A DNA stretch of 55,869 nt from Deltaproteobacteria bacterium. GTDB lineage: Bacteria > Myxococcota > SpSt-1050 > JACRCP01. The stretch spans positions 1 to 55,869 of the forward strand of contig JACRCP010000287.1 in NCBI GenBank assembly GCA_016218965.1, in the 5' to 3' direction. Below, piece after piece: positions 16,506 through 36,148 of this stretch; positions within the stretch are counted from its first letter, which is position 1; every line of letters starts with the position of its first letter. Below the pieces are notes generated by a model. The model was not told where the DNA came from and made no database searches. It saw only the letters and a list, made by a program, of their open reading frames with translations. The position numbers and the translations under genes are program-made.

Positions 16506-18686
16506 ATGGGCAACACCTTCGGAAAGTATGGGCTTGTGCGCAAACTCGCGACCGGCGGGATGGCGGAGATCTGGCTCGCGCGCCAGACGGGGATGCAGGG
16601 GTTCGAAAAGCCCGTCGTCATCAAGCGCATCCTCCCGCACCTTTCCACCGATCAGGTTTTCGTGAAGATGTTCCTGGATGAAGCGCGGGTGGCGGCGTGC
16701 CTCAACCACCCGAACATCGTCCAGATCTACGACCTCGGCTGCGTCGATGGCCAGTACTTCATCGCCATGGAGTTCGTCGACGGCGTCGATGTCTCGACCG
16801 TGCTCAAGATGGGGCGAACGCGCAAGACACCGCTCAAGCTCAGGTTCACGCTCCGGATCGTCAGTCAGGCCTGCGAGGGGCTCCACCACGCCCATTTCCT
16901 CACGGACATGAACGGCCAAAAGCTCAGCCTGGTGCACCGGGACGTGAGCCCGCAGAACATATTGGTGTCGTACACGGGAAACGTCAAGGTCACGGACTTC
17001 GGCATCGCCAAGGCGCGGGGGCGCTCGACGAAGACGACCACCGGGACGCTAAAGGGGAAGTTCGGCTACATGTCCCCCGAACAGATCTCGGGCGGATTCG
17101 TCGATCACCGCTCTGACGTGTTCTCGCTGGGGACCGTGCTGTGGGAAATGCTCACCTACCGCCGGCTCTTCAAGCGCGACAACGAGGCGGCCACCATCAT
17201 GGCCGTCGCGGGCGACGAGATCCCGTCGCCCAGGCGTTATTGGCCCAAGCTCCCCGAAGAACTCGACCGGATCACGATGAAAGCCCTCGATCGGAACATC
17301 GAGAACCGCTATCAGAGCGCCCGGGAGCTCGGCAACGCGCTCGAGCAGTACCTCGCCTCGCAGGGCCTCGGCGTCGTTTCCTCGGAGATCGCCCAGTTTC
17401 TGGACAGTCTGTTCCCCGAGAAACAGCTCGGCGCCCGCGACGCGTCAACGGTTTCCGGCCTCTCGGCGGCCGTGTACCGGGATCAGAAGAGCGGCTCGGT
17501 GAGCCTGCCGGTGGTCACCAACCCCGGCATGCGTTCTGCGGCCGCTTCGTCGATGATGGGGCCGGAGATCTCCGTTCCGCCCGGCGCCGCGGGGCCGGCG
17601 GCAGGCGGGGGCGCGGGCGAACCGGCCGCCGGGGACGGAACCGGCGGCGACGGTGGGCCTCCCGCGCTCCCCCCGGGACCCGAACAGGACGCCCTCGCGC
17701 AGGCAATGAGAGGCGTGCTCGACCAGATCGAGCCGCCCGCGCCCGAGGAGGTGGACGATGACGACATCGAGGTTTTTGAGGAGCCCGCACGAGAGCAGGC
17801 CCAAAAACACGCGGCACCCGCGGCGCCGGCGCCCGAAGACGCCGGGTTCGGCTTCCCCGAGACGGAGGAACGTCGGCCGGGCAGAATGAAGGTCGTGTTC
17901 ATCGCAGCCCCTCTGGTTGTCGCGGCTCTGGCCGCCGGCGTGTATTTCGGGCTCGGCGGCGCAACGAAAGGTCCTGCCCCGGCGCCAGCGGCGACGGCGG
18001 CCGCGGCGACGCCCGCAGCGAAGCCTGCGGACGGCGACGCTCACAAAGGGCAGGAATCCGCCGCCAAACCCGCCGAGGCGAAACCGGCCGTGGAGCCGGG
18101 CGCAAACGAGCCGGCAAAAAAGGAACCCAAAAAAAAGGAGACCAAGAAGGCAGAAACGGCCCCAAAGACCGCGGCGCCCGAGAAAAAGGTCAAGGAAACC
18201 CCGACACAGGCCGAGGAGCCGAAAAAGGAGCCGGCGCCCCCGCCGAAGGTCGCAACGGCGGCCCCGGTGGGCGACGGTTTTTTGAACCTCGACTCCGACC
18301 CGTGGGCCGAGGTGTGGACCGGCGGGTCCAAACTCGGCGACACGCCGCTCATCAAGGTCAAGGTCCCCTCCGGCAGAATCCAGCTCGTCCTGAAGAACCC
18401 CGAGCTCGGTTTCGAAAAAAAGATCACCATCGACGTTCCGGCCAACGAAACAGTGGGGCAGAAAATCTCGGTAAAAAAGGGTATTATCAACGTCAGGTCC
18501 GACCCGCCCGCCGAGGTGTACATAGGCAGGACCAAGGTGGGCGACACGCCGCTCTCGGACCACGAGGTCTTCGAAGGGGTCCACAAACTGCGGCTGGTCA
18601 ACCGCGAGAAGGGGCTCGAGAAGGCGATTTCGGTGAGCGTGGGCCCCGGGCAGGTGAAGACGATAAACGAGAACCTGGCGAAGTAG
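16506..18686 (+). CDS. Ser/Thr protein kinase with one membrane helix and PEGA repeats
   Basis: The product has 726 residues. The Hanks-type kinase domain occupies about residues 8-285: Gly loop LATGGMAEIW, Lys40 in VVIKRI, Glu59 in the C helix, HRDVSPQN at 145-152 and DFG at 164-166. An activation loop TKTTTGTLKGKFGYMSPEQ follows. A Gly/Pro-rich linker precedes a membrane helix at about 463-483 (FIAAPLVVAALAAGVYF). The outer part is an Ala/Lys/Pro-rich spacer and two PEGA repeats (LNLDSDPWAEVWTGG near 592 and INVRSDPPAEVYIGR near 661), which usually contact the envelope. This is a typical myxobacterial layout. It opens the four-cassette region and may sense or control the surface proteins that follow. 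The second is inference. Confidence 0.93.
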   Translation: MGNTFGKYGLVRKLATGGMAEIWLARQTGMQGFEKPVVIKRILPHLSTDQVFVKMFLDEARVAACLNHPNIVQIYDLGCVDGQYFIAMEFVDGVDVSTVLKMGRTRKTPLKLRFTLRIVSQACEGLHHAHFLTDMNGQKLSLVHRDVSPQNILVSYTGNVKVTDFGIAKARGRSTKTTTGTLKGKFGYMSPEQISGGFVDHRSDVFSLGTVLWEMLTYRRLFKRDNEAATIMAVAGDEIPSPRRYWPKLPEELDRITMKALDRNIENRYQSARELGNALEQYLASQGLGVVSSEIAQFLDSLFPEKQLGARDASTVSGLSAAVYRDQKSGSVSLPVVTNPGMRSAAASSMMGPEISVPPGAAGPAAGGGAGEPAAGDGTGGDGGPPALPPGPEQDALAQAMRGVLDQIEPPAPEEVDDDDIEVFEEPAREQAQKHAAPAAPAPEDAGFGFPETEERRPGRMKVVFIAAPLVVAALAAGVYFGLGGATKGPAPAPAATAAAATPAAKPADGDAHKGQESAAKPAEAKPAVEPGANEPAKKEPKKKETKKAETAPKTAAPEKKVKETPTQAEEPKKEPAPPPKVATAAPVGDGFLNLDSDPWAEVWTGGSKLGDTPLIKVKVPSGRIQLVLKNPELGFEKKITIDVPANETVGQKISVKKGIINVRSDPPAEVYIGRTKVGDTPLSDHEVFEGVHKLRLVNREKGLEKAISVSVGPGQVKTINENLAK

Positions 18687-18694
18687 GCGGCGGT

Positions 18695-18749
18695 CTTGGA
18701 GTGCGGCTTGACGCCGCCTTGAATTCGCGCGGGCTTGACGGCGCGCGGA
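18695..18749 (+). repeat. TTGGAGTGCG double-hairpin repeat, copy 3
   Basis: CTTGGAGTGCGGCTTGACGC is followed by CGCCTTGAATTCGCGCGGGC and TTGACGGCGCGCGGA. It is the same element as at 34692-34750, with GGC-TTGA-CGCC and GCGC-GGCTTGACG-GCGCGC hairpins. It lies between the kinase and the first TPR-like gene. Confidence 0.8.
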
Positions 18750-18783
18750 CCGTTGAGCGAAGGTGAAAAGACGGCAAGAAAGG

Positions 18784-19728
18784 ATGACGGCCACGAAGTT
18801 CGCCGCAGGTCTGTTGGCGGGCGCGTGCATTGCGTGCGCTTTCGCCGCCGCCGCGCGCGCGGGGACGGCGCTGCCGGACGAGTACAGCCCCGACGATCTC
18901 ATCCGGGACGCCGTAGGCGCCTACGATGCGATGGAGTACGATCGGGCCGTACCGATTCTCCAGGAGGCGTTCAAATTGCCAGGCTTGAGCCAGAAACAGC
19001 GTATCACCGTTCTCCAGTACGGCGCCCTGATCTGCATCATCCAGAAAAAAGACCCGCTCGCGCGCGAGACCATCCGCGAGATCTACCGGCTCAAGCCCGA
19101 CTTCGAACTCCCGCAAACGATGGCTCCGAGCTTCAGGAAATTCTTTGAGGACGTCCGGAATGAAAACAAGCCGAAACCCGCGCCCGCGCCGGTTCCGGTC
19201 CCTGAGCCCGAACACCGGCCGACTCCGCGCGTGATCGAACCCTGGGCCGTCCCGCCGCCGCCGCCAGCCAACGCGAGGGCGGCGGACCCCGTGGACGCAG
19301 ACGACGACAAGCCGCCGCCGGACGGCGCCCGCCCGGGCGTGGGACGCAAGGTCGAGGGGCCGAACTGGTTCGTCCGTTTCTGGCCTTCGTGGACCTGCTT
19401 CATCGCGGGGGCGGCGCTCCTCACCCCCGGGATTCTCGTCGGCCTCGACGCCGACTCGGGCCGGGGCGATCTCGAGGCGGCCGAGCGCGACAGCCAGGGC
19501 CGGATCACGTCGCTCTCCTACGAGCAGGCGCGGGCGCTGCAGGACGAGGCCGACCGCAAGGGACTCACTGCGACGGCGCTCATGGGCGCCGGCGCGGCGG
19601 CAATGGTGACCGGCGCGATCATGTTCTTCGTCTACGACGGCGCGTCTCCCCCTTCAAAACCCGACTTGTCTCTGTCGCCGGCAACCGATGGAAGGTCGAT
19701 CCTGGTGACGTTGGGCGGAGGCTTTTGA
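18784..19728 (+). CDS. Cassette 1: exported TPR-like protein with two membrane helices
   Basis: The product has 314 residues. The signal peptide (MTATKFAAGLLAGACIACAF, cut near ARA) precedes a helical TPR-like domain at about 30-120 (DLIRDAVGAYDAMEYDRAVP then YRLKPDFELPQTMAPSFRKF). A Pro-rich linker follows, then WFVRFWPSWTCFIAGAALL and ALMGAGAAAMVTGAIMFFVY, two membrane helices about 45 residues apart. The C-terminal tail ends LGGGF. Three paralogues in this window share every part (22345, 26982, 33227). AAGAAAGG precedes the ATG at 18784. The lipoprotein gene begins one base after the stop, so the pair is co-translated. Likely an inner-membrane, periplasm-facing partner of the lipoprotein. 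Function unknown. Confidence 0.82.
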   Translation: MTATKFAAGLLAGACIACAFAAAARAGTALPDEYSPDDLIRDAVGAYDAMEYDRAVPILQEAFKLPGLSQKQRITVLQYGALICIIQKKDPLARETIREIYRLKPDFELPQTMAPSFRKFFEDVRNENKPKPAPAPVPVPEPEHRPTPRVIEPWAVPPPPPANARAADPVDADDDKPPPDGARPGVGRKVEGPNWFVRFWPSWTCFIAGAALLTPGILVGLDADSGRGDLEAAERDSQGRITSLSYEQARALQDEADRKGLTATALMGAGAAAMVTGAIMFFVYDGASPPSKPDLSLSPATDGRSILVTLGGGF

Positions 19729-19729
19729 G

Positions 19730-21487
19730 ATGTTCGCCGATTCTGCAAATCCCAAATCCCAAATCCCGAATCCCAAATTGTGCCTGCTTCTAACTGTCCA
19801 CTTCTTACTTCTCACCGTCCTGGGCGGTTGTTTTCCCGATCTTGGCGTTGACGACTTCAAGTACCGCTGCCAGTCGGCCGCCGACTGCGACACGGGAGCA
19901 TACGTGCCGTGGGACATCGGTGTGCCGGACTATGGCGTGGCCGGAGACACGGGCGCCGCGACAGACCGGGGACCGGAGGACCGGGGGACGAGGGACGAGG
20001 GGACGACGGACGAGGGGACAACGGACGACGGGACGACGGACGACGGGACGACGGACGACGCCGGGGCCGACTCGTCAGACCTGTCCGACGTGTCCGACAC
20101 GTCCGGCGGCGGCGATGATGCTCCAGACGCAGCGGACGCGGGCGGTGACATCGAAACGACCGACACCGGCGCGGATGCCGGTGATGACACGGGGGCCGCC
20201 GACTCCGGGGCCGACTCCGGGACTGACGCGGGCGCAGACGCCGGCTTCGACGCGGGGCAGTCGTGCCTCCCCTGCACCGGATGCTGTGACGGGGTCGCGT
20301 GCCGCGCGGGCGCGATGGACGTCCAGTGCGGCAAAAACGGCGCCGCGTGCGAGGACTGCACCGCGTCGGGCGGGGCGTGCCGCAACCAGGCGTGCGAAGT
20401 CCAGCCGCCGGTCTGCAACTCCACTTCGTGCCCGAACGGCTGTTGCAGCGGCACCACGTGCCAGAACGGCGACATCGACACCGTTTGCGGGACGGGCGGG
20501 ACGCTCTGCCAGAACTGCACTTCTTTCAGCCAGACCTGCATCAACAAGGGCTGCCACGGGGCGTGCGACGCGGTCACGTGCGGGAGCGGGTGCTGCGATG
20601 GAGACTCGTGCCTCCCGGGGAACACCGCGGACAAATGCGGGAAGGGCGGCGGCGCCTGCGGGACATGCGGGATTTTCAAGCCCCACTGCCTCAACCAGGC
20701 GTGCGGAATCTGCGGCCTCAACGCGTGTTTCCTCCAGGACAAGTGCTGCGACTCGTCCGGCGGCTGCCATGCGGGCGACACCGACACGCTGTGCGGCGAG
20801 AGCGGAGAGATGTGCGAGGACTGCGCGGCCATCGGGCAGAAATGCGTCTACCAAAACTGCCACGGCTGCGACCCCCTCACATGCCCCAACGGCTGTTGCG
20901 ACGGAAACGTCTGCAGGCCGGGGACCGACAACAACGCGTGCGGCACCAACGGCGCGGCGTGTGCAAACTGCACATCCGGGGCGAGCCCCGTGTGCAGCAA
21001 CCGTTCATGCGGTTTGTGCAACGCTACGACGTGCCCCGACGGCTGTTGTGACGGAAGCGGAACATGCCAGCCGGGCACCGCAAACACCGCCTGCGGAACT
21101 GCCGGCGCGCTCTGCCAGGATTGCGGTGGCGGCGCCTGCAACAACAAGAGTTGCGGGGCATGCAACGCGACGACCTGCGGAAGCGGCTGCTGCGACGCGC
21201 AAGGGAACTGCCGCCCGGGGACGCTAAACGACGTGTGCGGAAAGGGCGGCGGAGCGTGCGCCGACTGCAACACGACGGCGACCGCCCGGGCGTGCGTGAG
21301 CCAGCAGTGCGCGTGCAACAAGACGCACTGCAACCTTATGGACGACTACAACTGCTGCGACCCCGACGACAACACCTGCAAGGACGGAAATTCAAGCAAC
21401 TACTGCGGCAAGTCCGGCAACCAGTGTTCTGACTGCGGCTCGGGATACTGCTGCTCGCACGCATGCCAGTCGTCGGCGTGCAACTGA
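19730..21487 (+). CDS. Cassette 1: Cys-rich repeat lipoprotein (8 repeats)
   Basis: The product has 585 residues with a signal ending VLGGC, a lipobox. A short domain (DLGVDDFKYRCQSAADCDTG) follows, the shared head of all four cassette lipoproteins. Next comes a Thr/Asp/Gly linker encoded by 15-base repeats (19985-20060) and a DLSDVSDTS segment. Then come eight Cys-rich repeats of roughly 45-50 residues built on C...TCPxGCCDGxxCxxG (Cys pair in each) and CGxxGxxCxxC. The last unit is degenerate (NCCDPDDNTC). All Cys are likely disulphide-bonded outside the cell. The residues before the signal core (ANPKSQIPNPK) are encoded by a tandem repeat. The family resembles repeat proteins I recall from myxobacteria. 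Function unknown. Confidence 0.85.
   Translation: MFADSANPKSQIPNPKLCLLLTVHFLLLTVLGGCFPDLGVDDFKYRCQSAADCDTGAYVPWDIGVPDYGVAGDTGAATDRGPEDRGTRDEGTTDEGTTDDGTTDDGTTDDAGADSSDLSDVSDTSGGGDDAPDAADAGGDIETTDTGADAGDDTGAADSGADSGTDAGADAGFDAGQSCLPCTGCCDGVACRAGAMDVQCGKNGAACEDCTASGGACRNQACEVQPPVCNSTSCPNGCCSGTTCQNGDIDTVCGTGGTLCQNCTSFSQTCINKGCHGACDAVTCGSGCCDGDSCLPGNTADKCGKGGGACGTCGIFKPHCLNQACGICGLNACFLQDKCCDSSGGCHAGDTDTLCGESGEMCEDCAAIGQKCVYQNCHGCDPLTCPNGCCDGNVCRPGTDNNACGTNGAACANCTSGASPVCSNRSCGLCNATTCPDGCCDGSGTCQPGTANTACGTAGALCQDCGGGACNNKSCGACNATTCGSGCCDAQGNCRPGTLNDVCGKGGGACADCNTTATARACVSQQCACNKTHCNLMDDYNCCDPDDNTCKDGNSSNYCGKSGNQCSDCGSGYCCSHACQSSACN
19747..19779. repeat. AAATCCC heptamer tandem repeat inside a signal peptide
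   Basis: Four to five units of AAATCCC or GAATCCC encode NPKSQIPNPK, the basic n-region of the lipoprotein signal peptide. Related words occur at 23220-23251 at the same place in the cassette 2 lipoprotein gene. Confidence 0.75.
19985..20060 (+). repeat. 15-base coding repeat (GTTDD linker)
   Basis: About five units of GGGACGACGGACGAC or close variants encode the linker RGTRDE-GTTDE-GTTDD-GTTDD-GTTDD of the cassette 1 lipoprotein. The wording is close to the non-coding GGGACGA repeat at 27843-27885. Unit number could vary between strains by slippage. Confidence 0.75.
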
Positions 21488-21587
21488 CGTCCGACGCGCG
21501 CCGGCGGCGGCGCAAGGGAGAACGGATTTGCAAAAGACAAACGAAAGGGGGTTCGGCATGAAAACAAGGGTGCGTAGCGGTCTCATG

Positions 21588-22173
<586 letters not shown>

Positions 22174-22275
22174 ACTGGAACCCCCTTCTCCACGAGTGGC
22201 AATGTACGCTTCGGCGTGTCTCGTTGTCAAACGCCCCGCACGACGGTTCAGTGAATCGCCGCTGCGAACCGACGC

Positions 22276-22304: not shown

Positions 22305-22344
22305 GTCGGCGTAGAAGTCTTCGGGCCGGCCGACGGGAGGGTGG

Positions 22345-23211
22345 ATGGCGCAGAGGCTCAATGCCGGTGCGATGGTTGTCGCGGTTGTCGCCGGCCTCTT
22401 CCCGGCCGCGGCGGGCGCGGGAACGTCCCTCCCGGACGGCCTCACCGCCGACGAGCTCATCAAGGACGCCGTCAACGCCTACGAGGCAATGGACTACGAC
22501 CGCGCCCTGCCGCTCCTTTCGGAAGCCGAGAGACTGCCGGGACTAAGCAAGATCGTCCGCATCACCATCCTCAAGTACCGCGCGTTCATCCTCATTCTCG
22601 AGGGAAAAGAAATCCTCGCGCGCGACGCCGTCACCGTGATCTACGACCTCAAGCCCGACTTCGAACTCCCGCAGACGGTGGCGCCCAAGTTCAGGATCTT
22701 CTTCGCCGGGGTCAGAGAAGACTACAAGCCCAAGACCAAACCGAAAAAAGCACAAACCGACCGCATCCTCACGGTTCAACCCGTGCCGCCGGCACCCGCT
22801 CCCCGGGTCCAGAGGACCTCGCCGCCGGCGCCCGAAGCGCCGAACTGGTTCGTCCGGTGGTGGCCCTCGTGGACCTGCCTGGCCGCCGGAACGGCGCTTG
22901 CCGTCCCAGGCGTCATCATCGGCCTCGATGTCAAGTCCGGGCAGGACGAGTTAAAGAACGCCCAAAGGGACGATGCGGGGCACATCATCGGAATGACGTA
23001 CGACGAGGCGAAGTCGCTCCAGAACGAGGCCGACAAGAAGGGCCTGACCTCCACCATCCTCCTCGGCGCCGGGGGCGCCGTTGTCGCCGCCGGCATCGCC
23101 CTGTTCTTCGTGTACGACGGCGCCGCGCCCGCCACCGGCCGTACGAGTGTTTCGGTGTCGCCGGGAACGGACGGCCGATCGCTGCTCCTGCATCTCGGCG
23201 GAGGATTCTGA
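22345..23211 (+). CDS. Cassette 2: exported TPR-like protein with two membrane helices
   Basis: The product has 288 residues and is a close paralogue of the product at 18784. Parts in order: signal peptide (cut near AGA), TPR-like domain (DELIKDAVNAYEAMDYDRAL then VIYDLKPDFELPQTVAPKF), linker, WFVRWWPSWTCLAAGTALAV helix, loop (QDELKNAQRDDAGHIIGMTY), second helix (TILLGAGGAVVAAGIALFFV), tail LGGGF. The stop overlaps the next ATG by one base (TGATG), so lipoprotein synthesis is coupled. The loop between the helices is as conserved as the helices, so it may bind a shared partner. Function unknown. Confidence 0.83.
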   Translation: MAQRLNAGAMVVAVVAGLFPAAAGAGTSLPDGLTADELIKDAVNAYEAMDYDRALPLLSEAERLPGLSKIVRITILKYRAFILILEGKEILARDAVTVIYDLKPDFELPQTVAPKFRIFFAGVREDYKPKTKPKKAQTDRILTVQPVPPAPAPRVQRTSPPAPEAPNWFVRWWPSWTCLAAGTALAVPGVIIGLDVKSGQDELKNAQRDDAGHIIGMTYDEAKSLQNEADKKGLTSTILLGAGGAVVAAGIALFFVYDGAAPATGRTSVSVSPGTDGRSLLLHLGGGF

Positions 23212-26200
23212 TGCAACCCCCGAATTCCGAATCCCGAACGCCGAATTCCGGTCTGTTGCTCGCTCTGATCCTCACTTCCCACCTTTCATTTCTCACTCTA
23301 CTCTCCGGCTGCGACACCGACCTCGGCCTCCAGGAATTCCAGTTCGGCTGCAAGACCGACTCGGACTGCGGAACGGGGTTTAAGTGCGAAGGGGCGAAGA
23401 AGTGCGTCCGGATCCCCGTGACCGAAGACACCGGAATCCCGGTCGACGCGGCACCGGAGGACCGGGGGACGGCGAAAGACGCGGGGACCACGCCCGACTC
23501 GGCGTCCGACGGGTCGGACCTGTCCGACGTGTCCGACGCGTCCGACGGCGGCGTTGATGCATCTGACGCGATGGACGCGGGCGAAGACACCGGGATCACC
23601 GACGCCGGCGAGGACGTTGGTGATGCGGGCGGTGACGCCGAGATCACCGACACCGGCGAAGACGTTGGTGACGCGGGTGGCGACGCCGCGACCCCGGACG
23701 CCGGCGAGGACACCGGGATCACCGACGCCGGCGAAGACGTCGGTGACGCAGGTGGCGACGCCGGCACCCCGGACACCGGCCAGGACGCCGGCGAGGACGC
23801 CGGACCCGACGGCGGCCTCCCCTGCGGGCCGTGCAGCGGCTGCTGCAACGGTGCGACGTGTGTTGCGGGCACGGACGACCTCATGTGCGGGAGCGGCGGG
23901 GCGGCATGCCAAGACTGCACGGCGGCGGGGATGGAGTGCGAAAACCAGGCGTGCCGGACGCCCCCGACCTGCGACTCCTCGACGTGCCCCAACGGTTGCT
24001 GCGACGCGATGGGTCAATGTCTGACCGGCGAACTCAACACCTCTTGCGGCACCGGCGGCGGCGCCTGCTCCGATTGCACGCTTGCCGGAAAGACGTGTGT
24101 CGGGAAGACCTGTCACGGTTGCGACTACCTTACATGCCCCAACGGGTGCTGCGACGCCGGCGGTGTGTGCCGGACCGGAGACCAGAACTCCGTCTGCGGT
24201 TCCGGCGGGTCGGCGTGCATCGACTGCACGACCGGCGGCGGCACGTGCCAGACCAAGTCATGCACGTACCCGACGTGCAATGCGGGGACGTGCCCCGGCG
24301 GCTGTTGCGACACGGGCGGCGCCTGCCAAGGCGGCGATCAGGACACGCTTTGCGGCACCGGCGGCGTTTCGTGTCAAGACTGCGCCGCGGGCGGAAGGAC
24401 GTGCGCCGGGAAGGCCTGCCACGGGTGCGACAGCGTCACGTGCCCCGCGGGTTGCTGCGACGCCACCGGTGTCTGCCACTCCGGCGACCAGAATACGCAA
24501 TGCGGGACCAACGGCGCGCTCTGCGCCAATTGCTCCGTGACCGGCTCGAGATACTGCGTCAACAGAACATGTACACCGTGCAACGCGACGACCTGCCCGA
24601 ACGGCTGTTGCGACGCGTCGGGGGTCTGCCAGACGGGCGACCAGAACTCGGCTTGCGGAACCGGCGGAGCGGCGTGCCAGGAATGTGCGGCGGGAAGTCA
24701 GACGTGCGTCGCAAAAGCCTGCCACGGTTGCGACGCCGTGACCTGCGCGGCGGGGTGCTGTTCGGCCGGCGGGACGTGCATGGGCGGGACGACCGACATC
24801 GCCTGCGGGACCAACGGCGCCGCGTGCACGGACTGCACCGGCACAACCAACAAGTACTGCGTCAACAAGACCTGCACGTCGTGCAATGCCGCGACCTGCC
24901 CGACGGGCTGCTGCGATGCGAACGGTGCGTGCCAGGTCGGCACCGGCGACGGCCAGTGCGGCGCCGGCGGGGCCGCGTGCGAAAACTGCACGTCTTCGGG
25001 GAAGTCGTGCATCGGGCAGGCCTGCCACGGATGCGACGCAACCACGTGCCCGGACGGGTGCTGCGACTTGAGCGGCGTCTGCCAGCCCGGCACCGCACAC
25101 GACAGTTGCGGCGACAACGGGGCCTCGTGCGCGAGCTGCTCGTCAACCGCCAACCGTTATTGCTACAATCGCGCCTGCGCGCCCTGCAACGCCCAGACCT
25201 GCCCCGACGGGTGCTGCGACGGCAACGGCGTCTGCCAGGCGGGCGACGTGGTCAGCCAGTGCGGCACCGGCGGTGTCGTCTGCTCCGACTGCGCGCTCAA
25301 CCCGCTCGACAAGTTCTGCTACAACAAGGTGTGCACCCCCTGCAACGCAAACACCTGCCCCAGCGGGTGCTGCGACGGAACCGTTTGCCGAACTGGCGAT
25401 CAGGACAACCAGTGCGGCAATTCGGGCGTTGCGTGCAGCGACTGCACCGCCACGGCGAACAAGTACTGCTACAACAAGACCTGCACCGCTTGCGGCGCGA
25501 GCACGTGCCCGTCGGGCTGCTGCTCTTCGGGCCTCTGCCAGGGCGGGACGCAGAACACCCAATGCGGCACGGGAGGGGCGGCGTGCTCCGACTGCACCGC
25601 CGGCGCAAACAAGTACTGCTACAACCAGGTGTGCACGGCGTGCAACGCCAGTACGTGCCCGTTGGGATGCTGCGCCAGCGGGCTGTGCGAGCCGGGAGAC
25701 CAGCAGACACAGTGCGGGACCGGCGGCGTCGCATGCGCGAACTGCACGTCTCAAGGCAAGACGTGTGCCGAGCAAGCCTGCCACGGATGCGACTCGGTCA
25801 CCTGCCCGAGCGGGTGCTGCTCGGGCGGGACCTGCTATCCCGGGACTGCCGAGGACAAGTGCGGGAAGAACGGCGCAAACTGCAGCGACTGCGGATCGCT
25901 CACCACCTGCAAGAACCAGTCCTGCCAGCTCTGTGCGTTCGTGTGCGGCTTTGGCAACAAGTGCTGCGACGGCACCGGCGGCTGCCACACGGGCGACACC
26001 AACGACTTCTGCGGCGAGGCCGGCGAGCGGTGTTCGGACTGCAACGCGGTGCCCGGCCAGAACTGCATAAACAGGATGTGCCACGGCTGCGACGTCCTCA
26101 CATGCCCGGACGGGTGCTGCGACACCAACACCTGCCGGGTCGGCACGGAACACACGGCGTGCGGCGCAAACTCGGCCGCCTGCGCCAACTGCACGGCGGG

Positions 26201-27842: not shown

Positions 27843-27885
27843 AGGGACGAGGGACGAGCGAAGAAGGATGAAGGACGAGGGATGA
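27843..27885. repeat. GGGACGA heptamer tandem repeat
   Basis: Six or so degenerate 7-base units (GGGACGA, GGATGAA, GGACGAG) fill the gap between the cassette 3 TPR-like gene and its lipoprotein gene. They end at the ATG, so the binding sequence AAGGA is part of the repeat. Confidence 0.7.
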
Positions 27886-28660: not shown

Positions 28661-31600
28661 ATGAACAAAGTTATCAGCATCGCCATCGCGTCCGCGTTCG
28701 CTATCGCCGCAGGCGCCGCCGCCCGCGCGGAGGTGCCGCTTACGCTGTCGCACAACGGGTATCTCACGGACACGCAGGGCGCGCCGGTGAACGTCACCCT
28801 GCCCTTCGTCTTCAAGGTGTACGCCGAGGAGACGGGAGGCGACCCCGTATGGGTCGAAGCGATACCCAACGTCGGGGTTCAAAACGGTTTTTACGCGACG
28901 ACACTGGGTCTTTCGACGTCGCTCGCGAGCGTGTTCAACGCGCGGAAGGACGTGTGGCTCGAGATCTCGGTTGACGGGATCGCGATCACTCCGCGGCAGA
29001 AGATAAGCGCGGTGCCATACGCGCTGGTGGCGGACGACGCGGTCGGGGCCATTCACCCTACATCCATCACGGTTGGCGGGAAGAAAGTGGTTGACGAGGA
29101 AGGCAAGTGGTCGGGGGACCCTTCGGGGATACCCGGGGTCAAGAGCGTCGGGACGGCGGCGCCTTTGACGGGTGGGCCGATCACGGACACGGGGACGATC
29201 GGGATGGCAAAGGCTGACGGGACGGCGGACGGGTACCTTTCGGCGGCCGATTTCGCGGCTTTTTGGACCAAGCAGAACCGTGTGAGCGGGAAGTGCAACG
29301 ACGGTTTTTGCGTCTATCAGGTCAACGAGGACGGTTCGGTGGACTGCTTCCCCTGCGGGGGCGGTGCGGGGTCCGGGACGGTGACGTCCGTGGCGACTGG
29401 GCCCGGGCTGACGGGCGGGCCGGTGACGACGTCGGGGACCATCAGCCTCGACTCGGCCTGGCTGGACGGGTCTGCGCACGACGCGCGTTTTGTGAACGAG
29501 GGCCAGGCCGACGCCGTGACCTCGGCGATGATCCTGGACGGGACGATAGTGTTTGGCGACATCGGGCAGAACGCCTGCGTCGCGGGCCAGGTAATCAAGT
29601 GGGACGGGACGGCGTGGACTTGCGCGGCGGATCTGAACACCGTGTTGACCGTTGCGGCCGGCTCCGGGCTGGAGATGGCCGGGTCGAGCCTGTCGCTGCT
29701 GAAGACGTGCTCATCGGGGAACGTGCTCAAGTGGGACGGAACGAAGTGGGACTGCGCGGCGGATGTAAGCTCGGGGGGGACGGTGACGAGCATCGGCACG
29801 GGGGCCGGGCTGACCGGCGGGCCGATCACGGGGACGGGGACGATCAGCATTGCGACGGACAGTGTCACGACGGCGATGATCAAGAATGCGACCATCAAGT
29901 TCGAGGATTTCGACCCCAACGGCTGTGTCGCCGGGCAGATCCCCAAGTTCGACGGCGTGAACTGGATCTGCGGCAACGACGCCGGCGGCGCCGCCGGATA
30001 CGTGACCGACGTGTCGGCAACTGCGCCCGTCGCGAGCACCGGCGGCACGATGCCGGTCATCAGCATCGCAAAGGCGACGACAGCCGTGAGCGGCTACCTC
30101 TCCGCCGTCGACTGGAACCTCTTCAACAACAAGCAGGACCAGGTTGCCGGGGCGTGCCTGGCCGGGAGTTCGATTAGGGCGGTCAACCCGGACGGCTCGG
30201 TTCTTTGCGAAACGGACGACAACACGACGTACACGGCGGCGGCTGGATCGGGGATCGAAGTCGCCGGCACCGCCCTGTCTCTCCTCAAGACCTGCGTCTC
30301 CGGAAACGTCCTCAAGTACGACGGCACCAACTGGATTTGCTCGCCCGACCTGAACTCCGGCGGGACGGTGACAGCGGTGACGGCCTCGGCGCCTTTGTCG
30401 AGCATCGGTGGGGCCACGCCGAACATCGCGATGCCGGCGGCTTCGTCGTCCGCGGACGGCTACCTGACATCGGCGAACTGGACGGCGTTCGATGCGAAGC
30501 AGAACCGGGTCGCCGGGACGTGCGCCGCAGGGAGCGCCATCCGCGCCATCGACGTGAACGGGGCGGTGACGTGCGAGACGGACGACGGCCAGTCGTACAC
30601 CGCCTCAAGCGGCGTGATGCTGGTGGGCACGGACCTTCAGTTGAGCACGGTGGGATGCGCGTTTGGGGAGGTATGGAAGTACACGGCGGGCGGCTGGAGC
30701 TGCGAGCCGGACATTGACTCGGGCGGCGACGTAACGGGGGTCACGGCGGGCACGGGTCTCACGGGAGGCGGCGGCGCCGGGGACGTGACTTTGAACGTCT
30801 CGTTTGGGGGTACGGGGGCGGCGACTTCGGCGGCGCGAAGCGACCACAACCACACCGGGACGTACGAGCCGGAGATCGCCGCCGGGACGAACGCGCAGTA
30901 CTGGCGGGGGGACAAGACGTGGCAGGCGCTCAACACCACCGCGGTCACCGAGAGCGGCAACCTCTATTATACCGACGCAAGGGCGCGTGGCGCCCTGTCG
31001 GGAACCTTGCCCGTCACGTACAACTCCGGCACGGGCGCGATCGGAGTGTCGGCTAACTCGTCGTCCTCGGCGGGCGTGGTGGCGACCAGCGCGGGGCAGG
31101 CGAACATGGTTTGGAAGACCGACGGGAGTGGCAACCCCGCGTGGAGGTCGGACGCGGACTCCGGCGGCGACATCACGGCGGTCAACGTCACGGCGCCCAT
31201 CACGGGCGGCGGGGCGAGCGGGTCCGTGACGGTCGGCATCAGCCAGGCCGGCGCCGCCGCAGACGGCTACCTGTCGAGCGCGAACTGGAACACTTTCAGC
31301 GACAAGCAGAACAGGGTTACGGGCACCTGCGCGGCCGGCAGCTCGATCCGCGTCGTCAACGCCGACGGCACGGTCACGTGCGAGACCGACGACGGGCAGC
31401 TCTACACGGCCTCCGGCGGTGTTACTCTTTCAGGAAGCGACTTCCGCCTTGATACCACCGGGTGCCTGGCCTTCGAGGTCCTCAAGAGGAACGCCGCCAA
31501 CAACGCCTGGGAATGCGTCGCCGACGCCGACAGCGGCACCGTCACAAACGTGGCCACGGGGACCGGATTGACCGGAGGCCCCATCACGACCACGGGGACC

Positions 31601-33046
31601 ATCAGCCTGGCGGACACCGCCGTGACCCCCGGCAGTTACACACTCTCAAGCATCACCGTCGATGCCCAGGGGAGAATCACCGCGGCGTCCAGCGGGGCTG
31701 AGGTCGACGGCGTCATCGGCAACGAGGTGACCAACGCGACCAACGCGACGCTGACCAGGGGCGGCACAGGGACGGCGGGGGACCCTTATACTCTCGGCCT
31801 GAACCTGGGCAACGCGAACACATGGACGGGGCTTCAGACATTGTCGCGGGCCAGCGGCAGCCCGCCGATTGCGGTGGCGACGGCATATGCGGCGGGGGCG
31901 ACGGTCACGGATTTGAGCGCCGACATGGTTGACGGCAACCACGCGAGCGACTTTGCCGGCGCGTCCCACAACCACGACGCGACGTACGTCAACGAGGCGC
32001 AGGCCGACTCCATAACCTCCACGATGGTGGCCTTTGACTACGCCGGCTCGTCGAGCGAAGGCGGCAGCGCCACGAGCTGCGTCAATATTGATCCAGGGAC
32101 GTACGACTGGCACACCGACGGCACAAGGACTGTCAACGTCGATTACGCCTCGACGGCCGGGAGCGCGACTTCCGCGACTTCGGCGACAACCGCCACCAAC
32201 CTGGCAGGTGGAGGTGCCGGTACAATCCCCTATCAGAGTGCCGCCAACACAACCGCGATGCTCGCCGCGGGAACATCAGGTTACCTGCTACAGAGCGGCG
32301 GCGCAGGGGCGCCATCGTGGATCAACGCGACGAACGCGAGCACCGCAAGCACCGTGGTGAAGCGCGACGGCTCGGGCAACTTTTCCGCCGGGACGATCAC
32401 GGCGGCCCTTACAGGAAACGTGACGGGCAACGCATCGACGGCTACCACCCTTGCCGCCGATCCGGGCAACTGTTCCGCCGGGAACGCCCCCCTTGGCATC
32501 ACCGCCGCGGGAGTCGCAGAAGGCTGCTTTGACGTGGCGACACAGTCCGAACTCGACACCCACGCCGCCCTGACCTCCGCCCACGGCGCGACGAGCTCTA
32601 ACACCGCGTCAACGATCGTCATGCGCGACGCCTCGGGGAACTTCTCCGCAGGAAAAGTCACGGCAACGGCCCTCGGCGGCAGTGCTACGTCAGCCTACAA
32701 TGAAAGTGAGGCGGTGTCCACGACGACAAGCACGACCTATCAAACCAAAGTGACTTTGAATCTCCCGGTCGCCGGCACATATATTCTTTTCGCCTCGGCT
32801 GTTTTCGCCAACAACGCATATGTATACAACCCTCTGCGTTTCTACGACACGTCGACAAGTACTCTGATAAGCGGCGGCGACAACTACCAGAGTAGCAGCG
32901 CCGCGGGCGGCTGGGGGACCTACACCGTGATGCGGAGCTACACTACGTCCGGAAGTCAAAACGTCAATATTCAGTATCGTGCCTATGACGGAACAGACAC
33001 GGCTTCAATTAAATTCGCGCGCATTTTTGCACTGAGGATCAACTGA
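28661..33046 (+). CDS. Cassette 3: large exported fibre-like protein (phage tail-fibre modules)
   Basis: The product has 1461 residues with a signal peptide MNKVISIAIASAFAIAAGAA (cut near ARA). The N-terminal domain runs from LTLSHNGYLTDTQGAPVNV to ITPRQKISAVPYALVADDA. A long shaft follows of modules such as GTVTSVATGPGLTGGPVTT, ADGYLSAADFAAFWTKQNRV, NLYYTDARARGALSG and VVKRDGSGNFSAGTITAALT. These are familiar from phage tail fibres. Residues from about 1347 form a globular tip ending KFARIFALRIN. DNA for the tip is about 50 percent GC by my hand count of 32701-32880, far below the shaft DNA. GGAGGG precedes the ATG at 28661. Probably a trimeric surface adhesin. Host phage genes are absent. 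Confidence 0.85.
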   Translation: MNKVISIAIASAFAIAAGAAARAEVPLTLSHNGYLTDTQGAPVNVTLPFVFKVYAEETGGDPVWVEAIPNVGVQNGFYATTLGLSTSLASVFNARKDVWLEISVDGIAITPRQKISAVPYALVADDAVGAIHPTSITVGGKKVVDEEGKWSGDPSGIPGVKSVGTAAPLTGGPITDTGTIGMAKADGTADGYLSAADFAAFWTKQNRVSGKCNDGFCVYQVNEDGSVDCFPCGGGAGSGTVTSVATGPGLTGGPVTTSGTISLDSAWLDGSAHDARFVNEGQADAVTSAMILDGTIVFGDIGQNACVAGQVIKWDGTAWTCAADLNTVLTVAAGSGLEMAGSSLSLLKTCSSGNVLKWDGTKWDCAADVSSGGTVTSIGTGAGLTGGPITGTGTISIATDSVTTAMIKNATIKFEDFDPNGCVAGQIPKFDGVNWICGNDAGGAAGYVTDVSATAPVASTGGTMPVISIAKATTAVSGYLSAVDWNLFNNKQDQVAGACLAGSSIRAVNPDGSVLCETDDNTTYTAAAGSGIEVAGTALSLLKTCVSGNVLKYDGTNWICSPDLNSGGTVTAVTASAPLSSIGGATPNIAMPAASSSADGYLTSANWTAFDAKQNRVAGTCAAGSAIRAIDVNGAVTCETDDGQSYTASSGVMLVGTDLQLSTVGCAFGEVWKYTAGGWSCEPDIDSGGDVTGVTAGTGLTGGGGAGDVTLNVSFGGTGAATSAARSDHNHTGTYEPEIAAGTNAQYWRGDKTWQALNTTAVTESGNLYYTDARARGALSGTLPVTYNSGTGAIGVSANSSSSAGVVATSAGQANMVWKTDGSGNPAWRSDADSGGDITAVNVTAPITGGGASGSVTVGISQAGAAADGYLSSANWNTFSDKQNRVTGTCAAGSSIRVVNADGTVTCETDDGQLYTASGGVTLSGSDFRLDTTGCLAFEVLKRNAANNAWECVADADSGTVTNVATGTGLTGGPITTTGTISLADTAVTPGSYTLSSITVDAQGRITAASSGAEVDGVIGNEVTNATNATLTRGGTGTAGDPYTLGLNLGNANTWTGLQTLSRASGSPPIAVATAYAAGATVTDLSADMVDGNHASDFAGASHNHDATYVNEAQADSITSTMVAFDYAGSSSEGGSATSCVNIDPGTYDWHTDGTRTVNVDYASTAGSATSATSATTATNLAGGGAGTIPYQSAANTTAMLAAGTSGYLLQSGGAGAPSWINATNASTASTVVKRDGSGNFSAGTITAALTGNVTGNASTATTLAADPGNCSAGNAPLGITAAGVAEGCFDVATQSELDTHAALTSAHGATSSNTASTIVMRDASGNFSAGKVTATALGGSATSAYNESEAVSTTTSTTYQTKVTLNLPVAGTYILFASAVFANNAYVYNPLRFYDTSTSTLISGGDNYQSSSAAGGWGTYTVMRSYTTSGSQNVNIQYRAYDGTDTASIKFARIFALRIN

Positions 33047-33104
33047 GTATCGATTGCCGAGTGTCTGTATTTTTCTTTTACTGAGGGTTTTATGCAGGGA
33101 GATG

Positions 33105-33224: not shown

Positions 33225-33226
33225 CG

Positions 33227-34138
33227 ATGGGAACACGCTTGCGCTCGCACCACGGTCGGATACTGGCAGGAGGTTTCCTGCTTCTGCCGTTGACTCCGGC
33301 GTTGGTTCACGCTCAAGACGACGTCTTGGCCCCGGCACCCGAATCAACTCCCGCCCCCGACAACCCCTCTGCCCCGTCCTCCGAAGAGACGGCGGACTCG
33401 CTCCGGAACGCCGAGCGGGCGTATGACGAGATGAACTACGAGAAGGCCCTGTCAATCTTGTCGGACGTCGAGAAGAAGACCGATCTCAAGACATGGGAGG
33501 TCATCACCGTTTTCAAGCTCAAGGCGTTCATCCACATCAACAACGAAAACGACATCTTCGCCCGCGACGCGATACTCTCGATCTACAATCTCGATCCGAA
33601 GTTCAAGCTCCCCGAAAATCTCCCGCCCAAAATCCTCAAGGTGTTCGCCGAGGTCAAAAAAGACTTCAAACCCAAAAAGAAAAAGAAGCCCAAAACGTTT
33701 GGCGCGGCGCCGGCGACGGCGCCCTCCCCTGCCCCGCCGGCCGAGGTTTCCAAACCGGCCACGCCAGTTTCCGACGCGAACCTTTTTGTCCGGTTCTGGC
33801 CGTCTTGGGCGTGCCTCGTCGCAGGCGTCGGCCTCTTCGTCCCGGGGGCCATCGTCGGCGCCGGCGCCACGGCCGACCGCGAGAAGTTCGAGGACGCTCC
33901 CCGCGACGCCGCGGGCCGGATTATCGGAATAACGCGTGCGCAGGCCGAAAAGATGCAGGAAGATGCGAACACCAAGGCCTTGACCGGAAACCTCCTGATC
34001 GGCGCCGGCGCAGCGGCAGCAACAGCCGGTGTTGTGCTATTGTTCTTTTACGACGACGGTTTCCACCCGTGGGCGGTTCCGGTTTTGTCGACGGCCGACG
34101 GACGAGGCTTCGTCGCCGGCTTCGGCGGGGAGTTTTGA
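33227..34138 (+). CDS. Cassette 4: exported TPR-like protein with two membrane helices
   Basis: The product has 303 residues and is the most diverged of the four paralogues. A signal peptide (ILAGGFLLLPLTPALVHAQD) precedes the TPR-like domain (DSLRNAERAYDEMNYEKALS then SIYNLDPKFKLPENLPPKI). A Lys-rich linker (KPKKKKKPK) follows, then LFVRFWPSWACLVAGVGLFV, the loop and LLIGAGAAAATAGVVLLFFY. I start at the ATG at 33227; codons further upstream in frame belong to the tip remnant region. The next gene starts at a GTG directly after the stop codon. Confidence 0.82.
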   Translation: MGTRLRSHHGRILAGGFLLLPLTPALVHAQDDVLAPAPESTPAPDNPSAPSSEETADSLRNAERAYDEMNYEKALSILSDVEKKTDLKTWEVITVFKLKAFIHINNENDIFARDAILSIYNLDPKFKLPENLPPKILKVFAEVKKDFKPKKKKKPKTFGAAPATAPSPAPPAEVSKPATPVSDANLFVRFWPSWACLVAGVGLFVPGAIVGAGATADREKFEDAPRDAAGRIIGITRAQAEKMQEDANTKALTGNLLIGAGAAAATAGVVLLFFYDDGFHPWAVPVLSTADGRGFVAGFGGEF

Positions 34139-34666
34139 GTGCCGGTGACCTGCATTTCGCCGGATGGGTGCCACGGACAACCCCGGTTTGTCCGTGCCAC
34201 CCGGCGTTTCTTTTTCCTGATCACCGTACATCTGGCGATGTTGACGTTCTTTGCGGGATGTTCCGGCGGCCTCGGCCTCGGCGACTTCACGTTCGCCTGC
34301 GAAAAAGACTCGGAGTGCGGCAAGGGACAGAGGTGCGACCCGTCCGCCGGGTGCGTCGCAATTGGAAAACCCGACGGGGGACCAACGGATCGAGGGACAA
34401 CGGACGACAGCTTCCATCCGACGGACTCGTCGGACATGCCTGACCTGTCGGACGTGTCGGACGGAGCTGATGGTGACGCTTCGGACGCGGGCGGTGAAGA
34501 CGCCGGCGTCGCCGACGGCGGCGGGCTCGTCCTCGACTGGGCGGGCGTGTATCACGGCGCGTCCGGCACGTGTTCTTCGGCGGACTACGTTTTGCGTTCG
34601 ACGACGGGTTGGATGGTCCTGCCGGCGGGCGAATCGCCGTCGCACACGATTCGCCCGGCCGAGTAG
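34139..34666 (+). CDS. Cassette 4: short lipoprotein preceding the fibre
   Basis: The product has 175 residues from a GTG directly after the previous stop. Residues 10-22 are encoded by a single-hairpin palindromic repeat (34166-34202). The signal core FFFLITVHLAMLTFFAGC ends in a lipobox. The head LGLGDFTFACEKDSECGKGQ then RCDPSAGC matches the other cassette lipoproteins. The linker contains RGTTDD and DMPDLSDVSD words. The C-terminal part (SADYVLRSTTGWMVLPAGES) resembles that of the product at 27882. It is paired with the short fibre gene at 34781. Confidence 0.78.
   Translation: MPVTCISPDGCHGQPRFVRATRRFFFLITVHLAMLTFFAGCSGGLGLGDFTFACEKDSECGKGQRCDPSAGCVAIGKPDGGPTDRGTTDDSFHPTDSSDMPDLSDVSDGADGDASDAGGEDAGVADGGGLVLDWAGVYHGASGTCSSADYVLRSTTGWMVLPAGESPSHTIRPAE
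34166..34202. repeat. GGGTGCCACGGACAA repeat, copy 2 (single hairpin)
   Basis: GGGTGCCACGGACAA (34166-34180) and TTGTCCGTGCCACC (34188-34201, one mismatch) flank CCCCGGT. The short form has one hairpin where the other copies have two. It lies in frame near the start of a lipoprotein gene, as copy 1 does. Confidence 0.82.
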
Positions 34667-34670
34667 TTGC

Positions 34671-34750
34671 GTCTTGGAGCGTCCTGGAGTGTCTTGGAGT
34701 GCGGCGGCTTGACGCCGCCTTGAATTCGCGCCGGCTTGACGGCGCGCGGA
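34671..34750 (+). repeat. TTGGAGTGCG double-hairpin repeat, copy 4, with duplicated leader
   Basis: Three tandem decamers (GTCTTGGAGC, GTCCTGGAGT, GTCTTGGAGT) lead into GCGGCGGCTTGACGCCGCC and a second hairpin GCGCCGGCTTGACGGCGCGC. The same bases, apart from the duplicated leader, follow the kinase gene at 18695-18749. It lies between the cassette 4 lipoprotein and fibre genes. Confidence 0.82.
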
Positions 34751-34780
34751 ACGACGGAACGGAAAACGGAGGCTCGCGAC

Positions 34781-36148
34781 ATGAAAAACGTCTTCGCGCT
34801 TGTTGGGTTGTTCCTGGCCCTCGCGATGTTCCCTTCCCCCGCCCCCGCCGCCGTTCCCCAGACCCTCGTCCACACGGGGCACCTGTCGGACGCGCAGGGA
34901 AAACCGGTCGACGCGACGCTGGCGTTCGGCTTCACGCTCTTCACGTCCGAGTCGGGCGACGAGTCCGTGTGGACCGAGGAGCACGCGGACGTCGTCGTGA
35001 AGAACGGCGCGTACACAGTCACACTCGGCCAATTCAACGCCGTGACCCCCGAGCTGTTCTTCAAATACGGCAACCTCTGGCTCGAGATCTCGGTCGGCGC
35101 CCAGAAACTTCTGCCCCGCCAGAAGGTCAGCTCGGTCCCGTTCGCCCTTGTCTCGCACGACGCCATCGGCGCCATCCACCCCGCGTCCGTCACCGTCAAC
35201 GGGAAAACCGTGATCGACACCGAGGGAAAGTGGACCGGCGACCCCGCGGGGATGGCCGGCGTCCAGCAGATTGACACGACCGCGCCGCTTTACGGGGGGC
35301 CAATCACCAATACGGGCGCCATCGGCATCACAAAGGCGGCGGCCGACGCCGACGGCTACCTTTCGAAAGAGGACTGGACGGCATTCGGCGCCAAGCAGAC
35401 GCGCATCACCGGGCTGTGCCCGAACGGCCAGTGCGCGGTCGCGGTCAACTCGGACGGCACGCTCGTTTGCGAACCATGCGCCGGCGGCGTGTCAAAGGTC
35501 GACACGGGAAGCGGCCTCACGGGCGGGCCGATCACGGGCGAAGGCACAATCAGTCTCGACAAGACGCTCACCGACATCTGGTACGTAAACACCGAAGGCG
35601 ACGTGATGTCCGGCGGCCTCAAGATCACGCCCGCCGGCGGGTTCTCGGTCGGCACCGACCAGCTCGTCTGTCTCGACACCGGCAACGTCGGCATAGGAAC
35701 CGCGACGCCCGCCGCCAAGCTCCACGTCGCCGGCGACGCGACAATCGGCGGAGATCTCACCATCACGGGCGGAGGACTGAAGGGGTTTGTTCAATACGCC
35801 GAGGATGACACCGAGACGCAAAGCCAGACCACCACCTGGGTTACCAAGATCTCCCTCACGCTCGAACAGGGCACGTACCTGGTCAACGCGTTGGGCGATT
35901 TCAGGCACAGCTCAGACCCCGCCGGAGGCACCGAGGTGCGCATCTACAACACGACCGACACCGCCGTGATGTACGGACCCGTCTCGCTAAACGTAGCCGA
36001 CACGACGACCTACCAGTCGCTCAACTGGCTCAAACAGCTCACGCTCACAAAACAGACCACGGTCGCCCTCCAGTTCCGCTCAACCACCGGCGCCCTCTAC
36101 CGCGCCTACATGAAAATGGCCCGCCTCAAGGCCGAAAGAGTGGACTGA
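34781..36148 (+). CDS. Cassette 4: shorter exported fibre-like protein
   Basis: The product has 455 residues with a signal peptide MKNVFALVGLFLALAMFPSP (cut near PAA). The N-terminal domain (QTLVHTGHLSDAQGKPVDA to LLPRQKVSSVPFALVSHDA) matches that of the large fibre residue for residue in many places. The shaft is short, with modules TTAPLYGGPITNTGAIGIT, ADGYLSKEDWTAFGAKQTRI and GSGLTGGPITGEGTISL. The C-terminal globular tip (about 345-455) has a beta pattern TQSQTTTWVTKISLTLEQGT and ends AYMKMARLKAERVD. GGAGG lies 10 bases before the ATG. The stop codon abuts the convergent thiolase stop. Confidence 0.83.
   Translation: MKNVFALVGLFLALAMFPSPAPAAVPQTLVHTGHLSDAQGKPVDATLAFGFTLFTSESGDESVWTEEHADVVVKNGAYTVTLGQFNAVTPELFFKYGNLWLEISVGAQKLLPRQKVSSVPFALVSHDAIGAIHPASVTVNGKTVIDTEGKWTGDPAGMAGVQQIDTTAPLYGGPITNTGAIGITKAAADADGYLSKEDWTAFGAKQTRITGLCPNGQCAVAVNSDGTLVCEPCAGGVSKVDTGSGLTGGPITGEGTISLDKTLTDIWYVNTEGDVMSGGLKITPAGGFSVGTDQLVCLDTGNVGIGTATPAAKLHVAGDATIGGDLTITGGGLKGFVQYAEDDTETQSQTTTWVTKISLTLEQGTYLVNALGDFRHSSDPAGGTEVRIYNTTDTAVMYGPVSLNVADTTTYQSLNWLKQLTLTKQTTVALQFRSTTGALYRAYMKMARLKAERVD

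Follow-up and report, generated by a model that had tools for sequence, protein, structure and literature searches.

A repeated TPR/lipoprotein cassette beside a PEGA kinase, with MAT-like fibers in some copies, in an uncultured member of the Myxococcota

Four cassettes behind a kinase

The window, which is the whole stretch of DNA that we analyzed, is positions 1-55,869 (forward strand) of contig JACRCP010000287.1 from Deltaproteobacteria bacterium GCA_016218965.1. This uncultured, myxobacterium-like organism is classified by GTDB as Bacteria; Myxococcota; SpSt-1050; JACRCP01. The array at 16506-36148 comprises a kinase gene and then four cassettes (Table 1). Each cassette encodes an exported protein with a TPR-like domain and two C-terminal helices (TPR-2TM) and, directly after it, a lipoprotein.

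Table 1. Genes of the array, with positions in the window
Feature	Position	Strand	Remarks
Ser/Thr kinase with a TM helix near residue 480 and two PEGA repeats at the C-terminus	16506..18686	+	Pfam matches; ortholog in G001
TPR-2TM protein 1	18784..19728	+	Paralog alignment
Lipoprotein 1: divergent head, acidic linker, 8 Cys-rich repeats of ~50 aa, no fiber after	19730..21487	+	
TPR-2TM protein 2, structure modeled	22345..23211	+	
Lipoprotein 2: head, acidic linker, 20 Cys-rich repeats, no fiber after	23211..26855	+	ATG overlaps TPR stop
TPR-2TM protein 3	26982..27842	+	Paralog alignment
Lipoprotein 3: head, linker, short tail domain	27882..28475	+	Start uncertain; palindromic repeat 27942-28023
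Fiber A, 1461 aa, MAT-N-like N-terminal domain	28661..33046	+	ORF opens at 28472; NF053851 E 8.7e-5
TPR-2TM protein 4	33227..34138	+	Paralog alignment
Lipoprotein 4: head, linker, short tail domain	34139..34666	+	Start uncertain; repeat 34166-34180
Fiber B, MAT-N-like N-terminal domain	34781..36148	+	ORF opens at 34736; NF053851 E 2.5e-6; model

The initial annotation of this DNA, which was made from the sequence alone, described four paralogous TPR/two-helix proteins behind a PEGA kinase, and this description holds. The TPR-2TM proteins align end to end (the other three are 54, 47, and 37% identical to protein 1), and three DNA-level repeat families (D8, D9, and D12) coincide with the same four cassette copies. 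The F/WWPSW phrase and the inter-helix loop that had been pointed out are kept in all four proteins. The kinase matches Pkinase (119.2 bits, E = 2.7e-34) and PEGA (34.6 bits, E = 1.8e-8) from Pfam, both above the gathering scores.

In a model of TPR-2TM protein 2, residues 35-126 are confidently predicted (pLDDT of 92-97) to form stacked pairs of antiparallel helices. The best structural matches are TPR domains, including those of PilF and YbgF (TMt up to 0.77, all with E > 0.08), which agrees with the earlier reading of this domain as TPR-like. We rejected membership in the TssQ family (NF038027), as the scores of 24.7-30.3 bits fall short of its cut-off (65 bits). A scan of genome contigs with the TPR alignment gave 0 confirmed loci. 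The C-terminus of the TPR-2TM proteins has a conserved Phe/Trp with a beta-hairpin; the explanation that we favor below leaves this feature unaccounted for, and we count it against that explanation. On two other contigs of the same genome (C38 and C206), a CsgG-like domain sits on the two-helix C-terminus instead, and a lipoprotein with the head follows. Since the TPR domain can be replaced, the hairpin is pointed to as the partner module.

All four lipoproteins have a similar head, as annotated, but the motif given for it (D-F-x-x-x-C-x-S/T-D-x-D/E-C-G-x-G) fits exactly in cassette 3 only. Neither C-G nor the third Cys is present in cassette 1, cassette 2 reads E-F, and cassette 4 has K for S/T. 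Myxo_Cys_RPT (TIGR04201) was considered for the head and rejected (at most 16.5 bits, with a cut-off of 25). Of the touching or overlapping start and stop codons that had been reported, only those of cassette 2 are solid. The true starts of lipoproteins 3 and 4 are uncertain, because a palindromic repeat that occurs throughout the genome extends across their apparent N-termini. None of the four lipoproteins has Lys at +2, which is a reported inner-membrane signal for lipoproteins of M. xanthus. Two kinds of lipoprotein tail had been described: Cys-rich stalks in cassettes 1 and 2, and a short domain in cassettes 3 and 4, which are exactly the cassettes with a separate fiber after the lipoprotein.

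The array is not unique. Three further strong copies lie on other contigs of the same genome: C312 and C363 keep the order TPR-2TM, lipoprotein, fiber, and C116 has a lipoprotein and then a fiber. (The fiber at C312 is interrupted by stop codons, which fits the frameshift seen there.) The three-gene order is also found in both of the order-mates that we searched (G001 and G002). We therefore regard the repeating unit as one of up to three genes, encoding a TPR-2TM protein, a lipoprotein with a Cys head, an acidic linker, and a short C-terminal tail, and a fiber whose N-terminal domain is similar to that of the MAT (mosaic adhesive trimer) fibers of Bdellovibrio. Like the initial annotation, our literature searches, which mostly did not extend to subscription papers, found no named system with this layout.

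Pairing across the phylum

The one-to-one pairing of TPR and lipoprotein genes that was noticed in the window is real and reaches far beyond it. A lipoprotein is encoded directly after 40 of 84 TPR-TM homologs, as compared to 12 of 213 background genes (Fisher P of about 5e-16; the count is automated and conservative, and the homologs are not phylogenetically independent). We used three versions of the lipobox rule, and all of them agree in direction. The misses and false calls of the first version were read by eye, the second gave the counts reported here, and the third also requires the head. The reported rule overlooks some lipoproteins that are visible by eye, and these are left out of the 40. 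The pairing spans many families of the phylum, whose sequences are strongly diverged.

The initial annotation asked if a lipoprotein with the same head always follows, and it named homologs that mostly lack such a neighbor as a refutation, which applies by half. All of the same-order homologs are followed by one, but among the distant homologs, a regular expression for the head matched at 12 of 84, as compared to 3 of 213 background genes. The head is thus commoner than background, yet found in a minority. One-TM variants of the TPR-TM protein are paired with a different, headless lipoprotein. Most of the pairs across the phylum have no fiber, which means that their role must be a different or a more general one.

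What links the kinase to these genes is gene neighborhood. A full-length ortholog (42% identity) lies in the cassette neighborhood of G001, another genome (G008) has a kinase divergent from its TPR-TM/lipoprotein pair, and a paralog of the kinase is found on contig C351 of the same genome. Immediately downstream of TPR-TM genes, kinases of this type occur in 7/84 cases, as compared to 1/213 for the background.

Fibers and tail lipoproteins

Fibers A and B score 22.4 and 27.4 bits against NF053851, whose curated cut-off is 60, so we call them MAT-like and not members of MAT. A search of the window's own genome with NF053851 gave no matches, but it is uninformative, since the control genomes gave none either. 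The model of fiber B has an N-terminal beta-sandwich at residues 29-116 (pLDDT of about 90-96). A search of the PDB with this domain found no match at E ≤ 0.001, as reported for MAT, although such a negative result is weak evidence.

The presence of the tail tracks the presence of the fiber. All seven cassettes with a tail lipoprotein (cassettes 3 and 4 of the window, C312, C363, C116, G001, and G002) have a fiber, and cassettes 1 and 2 and the pair from G008 have neither tail nor fiber. Conversely, a tail lipoprotein is encoded upstream of 12 of the 15 same-order fibers with enough upstream sequence (6/9 if seeds of the HMM are excluded). A second type of tail, with the motif SxxYxLxxxxGQP, is found upstream of 27 of 56 fibers from other families (17/46 among non-seeds). 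Only 7 of 386 control windows reached 8 bits, and these were six duplicate fiber windows and one orphan tail lipoprotein. In the window's own genome, contig C84 has an orphan tail lipoprotein, and three fibers (C206:5189, C363:37944, and C363:41024) lack an adjacent one. In one other set of genomes, the tail scored in only 2 of 20 fiber regions.

We do not treat the two groups of tails as one family. Neither type detects the other by HMM, and since this cross-validation failed, the weak match in a profile comparison (E = 3e-4, probability of 40%) suggests only a remote relation. A DAVGDIHP-like motif in the fibers is more frequent where the tail is present (27/34 vs. 14/41, P = 1.5e-4), but this is only a lead, because the sequences are related and we chose the motif after looking.

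A possible trans-envelope module and its relatives

Our best explanation, which we offer tentatively, is that the array consists of variants of one trans-envelope module: a TPR-TM protein paired with a lipoprotein, to which this lineage has added a putative fiber-docking tail, with proposed control by the kinase. The TPR protein, with its proline-rich linker and helical hairpin, would probably sit in the inner membrane and expose its TPR domain to the periplasm. The lipoprotein would probably be in the outer membrane, and the paired conservation suggests that its Cys-rich head is the side that meets the TPR protein. In cassettes 3 and 4, the tail domain may dock the N-terminal domain of the fiber that is encoded next and would in this way hold a MAT-like trimeric adhesin on the cell surface. 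The lipoproteins of cassettes 1 and 2 would have their Cys-rich stalk in place of tail and fiber. The membrane kinase may sense or regulate the module, perhaps by phosphorylation. In favor of this explanation are the conserved gene order, the co-occurrence of tail and fiber, the excess of lipoproteins after TPR-TM genes, the exchangeable TPR domain, the kinases nearby, and the lack of Lys at +2. Besides the C-terminal feature named above, it is weakened by the fibers without a tail lipoprotein, the orphan tail lipoprotein, the poor match between the two tail types, the MAT scores below the cut-off, and the many pairs that have no fiber. The initial annotation proposed a platform that displays alternative surface structures, and we find its interpretation supported in part. 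The coupling of tail and fiber, which it did not notice, is compatible with such a platform, in which the physical link is a proposal.

The TPR-TM protein and the lipoprotein might instead form an envelope sensor that reports the state of the surface to the PEGA kinase, with the fiber as one of several sensory heads. The many pairs without a fiber, the excess of kinases beside TPR-TM genes, and the three different arrangements of kinase and pair (in the window, G001, and G008) all fit such a signaling complex. But at most TPR-TM loci, the gene just downstream does not encode a kinase, and this type of kinase is so numerous (13-24 matches per genome) that adjacency is only moderately telling. 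We consider signaling as the main role to be somewhat unlikely.

The matches to PilF and YbgF, the weak similarity to TssQ, and the gene order (TPR, client, client) raise another idea: as a chaperone or in a pilotin-like role, the TPR-TM protein might help to deliver or assemble the lipoprotein and the fiber without remaining in the finished structure. This seems improbable. A structural partner would account better than a general chaperone for the fact that each client has a dedicated paralog and that the hairpin is conserved while the N-terminal domain varies (TPR or CsgG-like). We think it just as improbable that there is no shared machine. The array would then be a mosaic of surface proteins that are each useful by themselves, were duplicated together, and are neighbors through local duplication and inheritance as an operon. 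In favor of this, the cassettes are recent enough to retain DNA similarity, and fibers and lipoproteins are also found apart; against it, the pairing persists over many families despite strong divergence, and the tail tracks the fiber.

If the trans-envelope module is correct, then the TPR-TM/lipoprotein pairing, for which we found no name in the literature searched, would gain its first functional hypothesis. Also, the repeated co-encoding of a surface fiber of the kind seen in predatory bacteria, a small lipoprotein, and a TPR protein beside a kinase suggests how such fibers might be anchored to the cell.

Several known systems resemble parts of the array. The T6SS-associated lipoproteins of the TssQ family share weak TPR similarity, but TPR-2TM proteins are not lipoproteins, and we saw no T6SS context in the cassettes. 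TPR-PEGA-two-helix proteins (with a copy on contig C418 of the same genome) are exported TPR proteins with a similar hairpin and a C-terminal aromatic residue; unlike in TPR-2TM proteins, a PEGA domain separates the TPR from the hairpin, and the gene is not directly followed by one for a head lipoprotein. Elsewhere in the phylum, TPR-2TM proteins have partner lipoproteins, some with MopE-type metal-binding repeats (L034), that are also encoded directly downstream, often with overlapping stop and start codons, but these lipoproteins have no tail and no fiber, and only part of them have the head.

The MAT fibers of Bdellovibrio bacteriovorus (PMC10769870) are likewise long exported fiber-like proteins, of which a genome has several diverse copies. 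Their N-terminal domain is a beta-sandwich that is reported to have no structural homolog in the PDB. The fibers in the window are encoded directly after a tail lipoprotein and a TPR-2TM gene, which may set them apart. According to the study that defined MAT fibers, their N-terminal domain is presumed to bind to some surface element yet to be identified (PMC10769870), and the tail lipoprotein is a concrete candidate for this partner. That the tail is the surface anchor of MAT-type trimeric fibers, and that the TPR-2TM protein and the PEGA kinase link this anchor through the envelope with the inside of the cell, strikes us as rather unlikely in full. The conserved neighbors offer a specific and small candidate partner, and cultivable relatives such as Polyangium (L125, L127, and L133) would allow the gene order to be tested.

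The cassettes and their TPR-2TM proteins

The source genome is a MAG of 418 contigs (6.29 Mb, 94.7% complete), and the window corresponds to its contig C180 in full. The initial annotation proposed four paralogous TPR/two-helix proteins, each followed by a lipoprotein with the same head. We found all four, and alignment confirms that they are paralogs. A lipoprotein comes after each of them, and the four heads are related; the head motif as first written matches exactly in cassette 3 only, and not in cassettes 1, 2, or 4. The Cys-rich stalks that had been described for two lipoproteins are made of ~50-residue repeats, with 8 in lipoprotein 1 and 20 in lipoprotein 2. The start and stop codons of the paired genes had been read as usually touching or overlapping. 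In cassettes 3 and 4, this is not dependable, because the predicted lipoprotein N-termini cross a palindromic, REPIN-like 15-mer, GGGTGCCACGGACAA. The genome contains 131 copies of this repeat, mostly as inverted pairs ~65-80 bases apart, and 0 copies of the reversed control. The signal-peptide starts of lipoproteins 1 and 2 are also uncertain, since these N-terminal regions are encoded by short direct repeats.

Features of the window, with positions in the contig
Feature	Position	Remark
PEGA kinase	16506-18686	
TPR-2TM proteins 1-4	18784-19728, 22345-23211, 26982-27842, 33227-34138	
REPIN-like palindromic repeat	27942-28023, 34166-34180, 37431-37520, 43138-43218	two copies within predicted lipoprotein N-termini
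Short direct repeats	19730-19790, 23211-23280	AATCCC-type and similar; lipoprotein 1 and 2 N-terminal regions
ORF(s) between cassettes 1 and 2	21588-22254, minus strand	presumably resembling a DUF2442/DUF4160-type pair
C-terminal Phe/Trp	23200-23208	after predicted beta-hairpin

In the AlphaFold2 model of TPR-2TM protein 2, a confident helical domain (residues 35-126) is followed by a disordered proline-rich linker, long helices (173-204 and 219-259), and a C-terminal beta-hairpin. Its matches in PDB are mostly TPR domains, with high target-normalised TM-scores and E-values above 0.08. The C-terminal residue is Phe or Trp in the window proteins and in many relatives, and this feature is absent from some of the families examined. 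The position of this conserved residue after a predicted beta-hairpin, for example here and at loci L010-L016, resembles an outer-membrane beta-signal.

N-terminal domains of other kinds also occur on the two-helix module. At C418, the domains are TPR plus PEGA; a CsgG-like domain is found at C38 (L009/L044), C206 (L096), and C146 (L101). The CsgG-like label is our own reading of the N-terminal sequences of the C38 and C206 proteins; the family-model search gave zero matches for this domain. At C206 and C38, a head lipoprotein is encoded next. The C146 gene lies downstream of a fibre.

Pairing with lipoproteins and kinases

A profile search gave 89 TPR-TM homologs, of which 84 were evaluable. 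As background, we used 213 genes from stretches of related genomes that were not picked for such genes. By an automated lipobox rule, a lipoprotein is directly downstream of 40/84 homologs and 12/213 background genes (Fisher P = 5e-16, which overstates the case because the search also admits generic TPR proteins and because relatedness inflates significance). The rule, which was rewritten once after a first pass over the same loci, was used unchanged on the background genes, and a third version of it gave an association in the same direction. A regular expression for the head matched downstream of 12/84 homologs (3/213 in the background). Most one-TM TPR variants have a headless lipoprotein partner.

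Among the genomes searched, the nearest are two order-mates (G001 and G002), and both have the order TPR-2TM, lipoprotein, fibre, as in the window's own genome. G001 also encodes an ortholog of the window kinase (42% identity over the full length, including PEGA) past the fibre, on the same strand, with two genes intervening. In G008, from another family, a PEGA kinase is divergent from a TPR-2TM protein and head lipoprotein that lack both tail and fibre. A GMxEVFLA-type kinase is immediately downstream of 7/84 TPR-TM homologs and 1/213 background genes (P = 7e-4, an overstatement for the reasons given above). The nearest paralog of the window kinase (59%) is at C351, where an ORF with a signal-peptide-like start begins ~90 bases after the kinase and is cut off by the contig end.

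Lipoprotein tails and fibres

Further strong copies of the cassette are on C312, C363, and C116. On C312 and C363, the order is TPR-2TM, head-and-tail lipoprotein, fibre; the C312 fibre has an apparent frameshift, which may be an assembly error. On C116, lipoprotein and fibre precede the TPR-2TM gene, which is followed by an unrelated choice-of-anchor D lipoprotein. A profile of the fibre N-terminal domain has 30 matches in this genome, some of which are internal repeats.

A fibre is next in 7/7 cassettes with a tail and in 0/3 without. For the same-order fibres that had 300 or more bases of upstream sequence, an HMM of the same-order tail found a tail lipoprotein upstream of 12/15 (6/9 non-seeds), and an HMM of a second tail type matched 27/56 fibres of other families (17/46 without seeds); these are not independent events, since the seeds were chosen by eye from the very loci counted and several non-seed matches are close kin of seeds. 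In control windows upstream of other genes, the pooled HMM at 8 bits matched 7/386. On inspection, six of these were duplicate fibre windows that had slipped through the filter and one was an orphan tail lipoprotein (C84) with a phosphatidyltransferase-like gene next. In 20 further fibre regions (19 from one genome), just 2 had a tail. An HMM from either tail type fails to find the other, and profile comparison of the two gives E = 3e-4 with a probability of 40%.

In another family, three small-lipoprotein/fibre pairs are in tandem (L109; G020 C2:80000-92000). Outside the phylum, in a Krumholzibacteriia MAG (L152), the gene directly upstream of a fibre resembling the mosaic adhesive trimer (MAT) fibres of Bdellovibrio bacteriovorus encodes a tail-like segment and a FlgD-like/Por secretion-type C-terminus.

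A proposed anchor and its relation to MAT fibres

These results support the view that the TPR-TM protein and lipoprotein form a general envelope unit of this phylum, with the fibre as an optional third part that is coupled to the lipoprotein tail. We propose that the hairpin of the TPR-2TM protein would sit in the inner membrane and the lipoprotein in the outer membrane, that the fibre would dock on the tail, and that the kinase may control the module. None of the four window lipoproteins (0/4) has Lys at +2, the inner-membrane signal reported for Myxococcus xanthus; this fits an outer-membrane site and is no proof of one. We found no name for the anchoring cassette in the papers searched. If confirmed, the proposed anchor would be the more important finding.

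The fibre belongs to a recently described kind. Its named relatives are from Kofleriaceae, Polyangium, and Myxococcales, which suggests Myxococcota as the phylum. The window fibres match the NCBIfam model Bdello_MAT_N (NF053851) with E = 2.5e-6 and 8.7e-5; both are under the curated cut-off, so we call them MAT-like and do not assign them to the family. The modelled beta-sandwich of the fibre has zero matches in PDB at E ≤ 0.001, and in this it is like the N-terminal domain of the Bdellovibrio MAT proteins, which is likewise reported to be without a structural relative there (PMC10769870).
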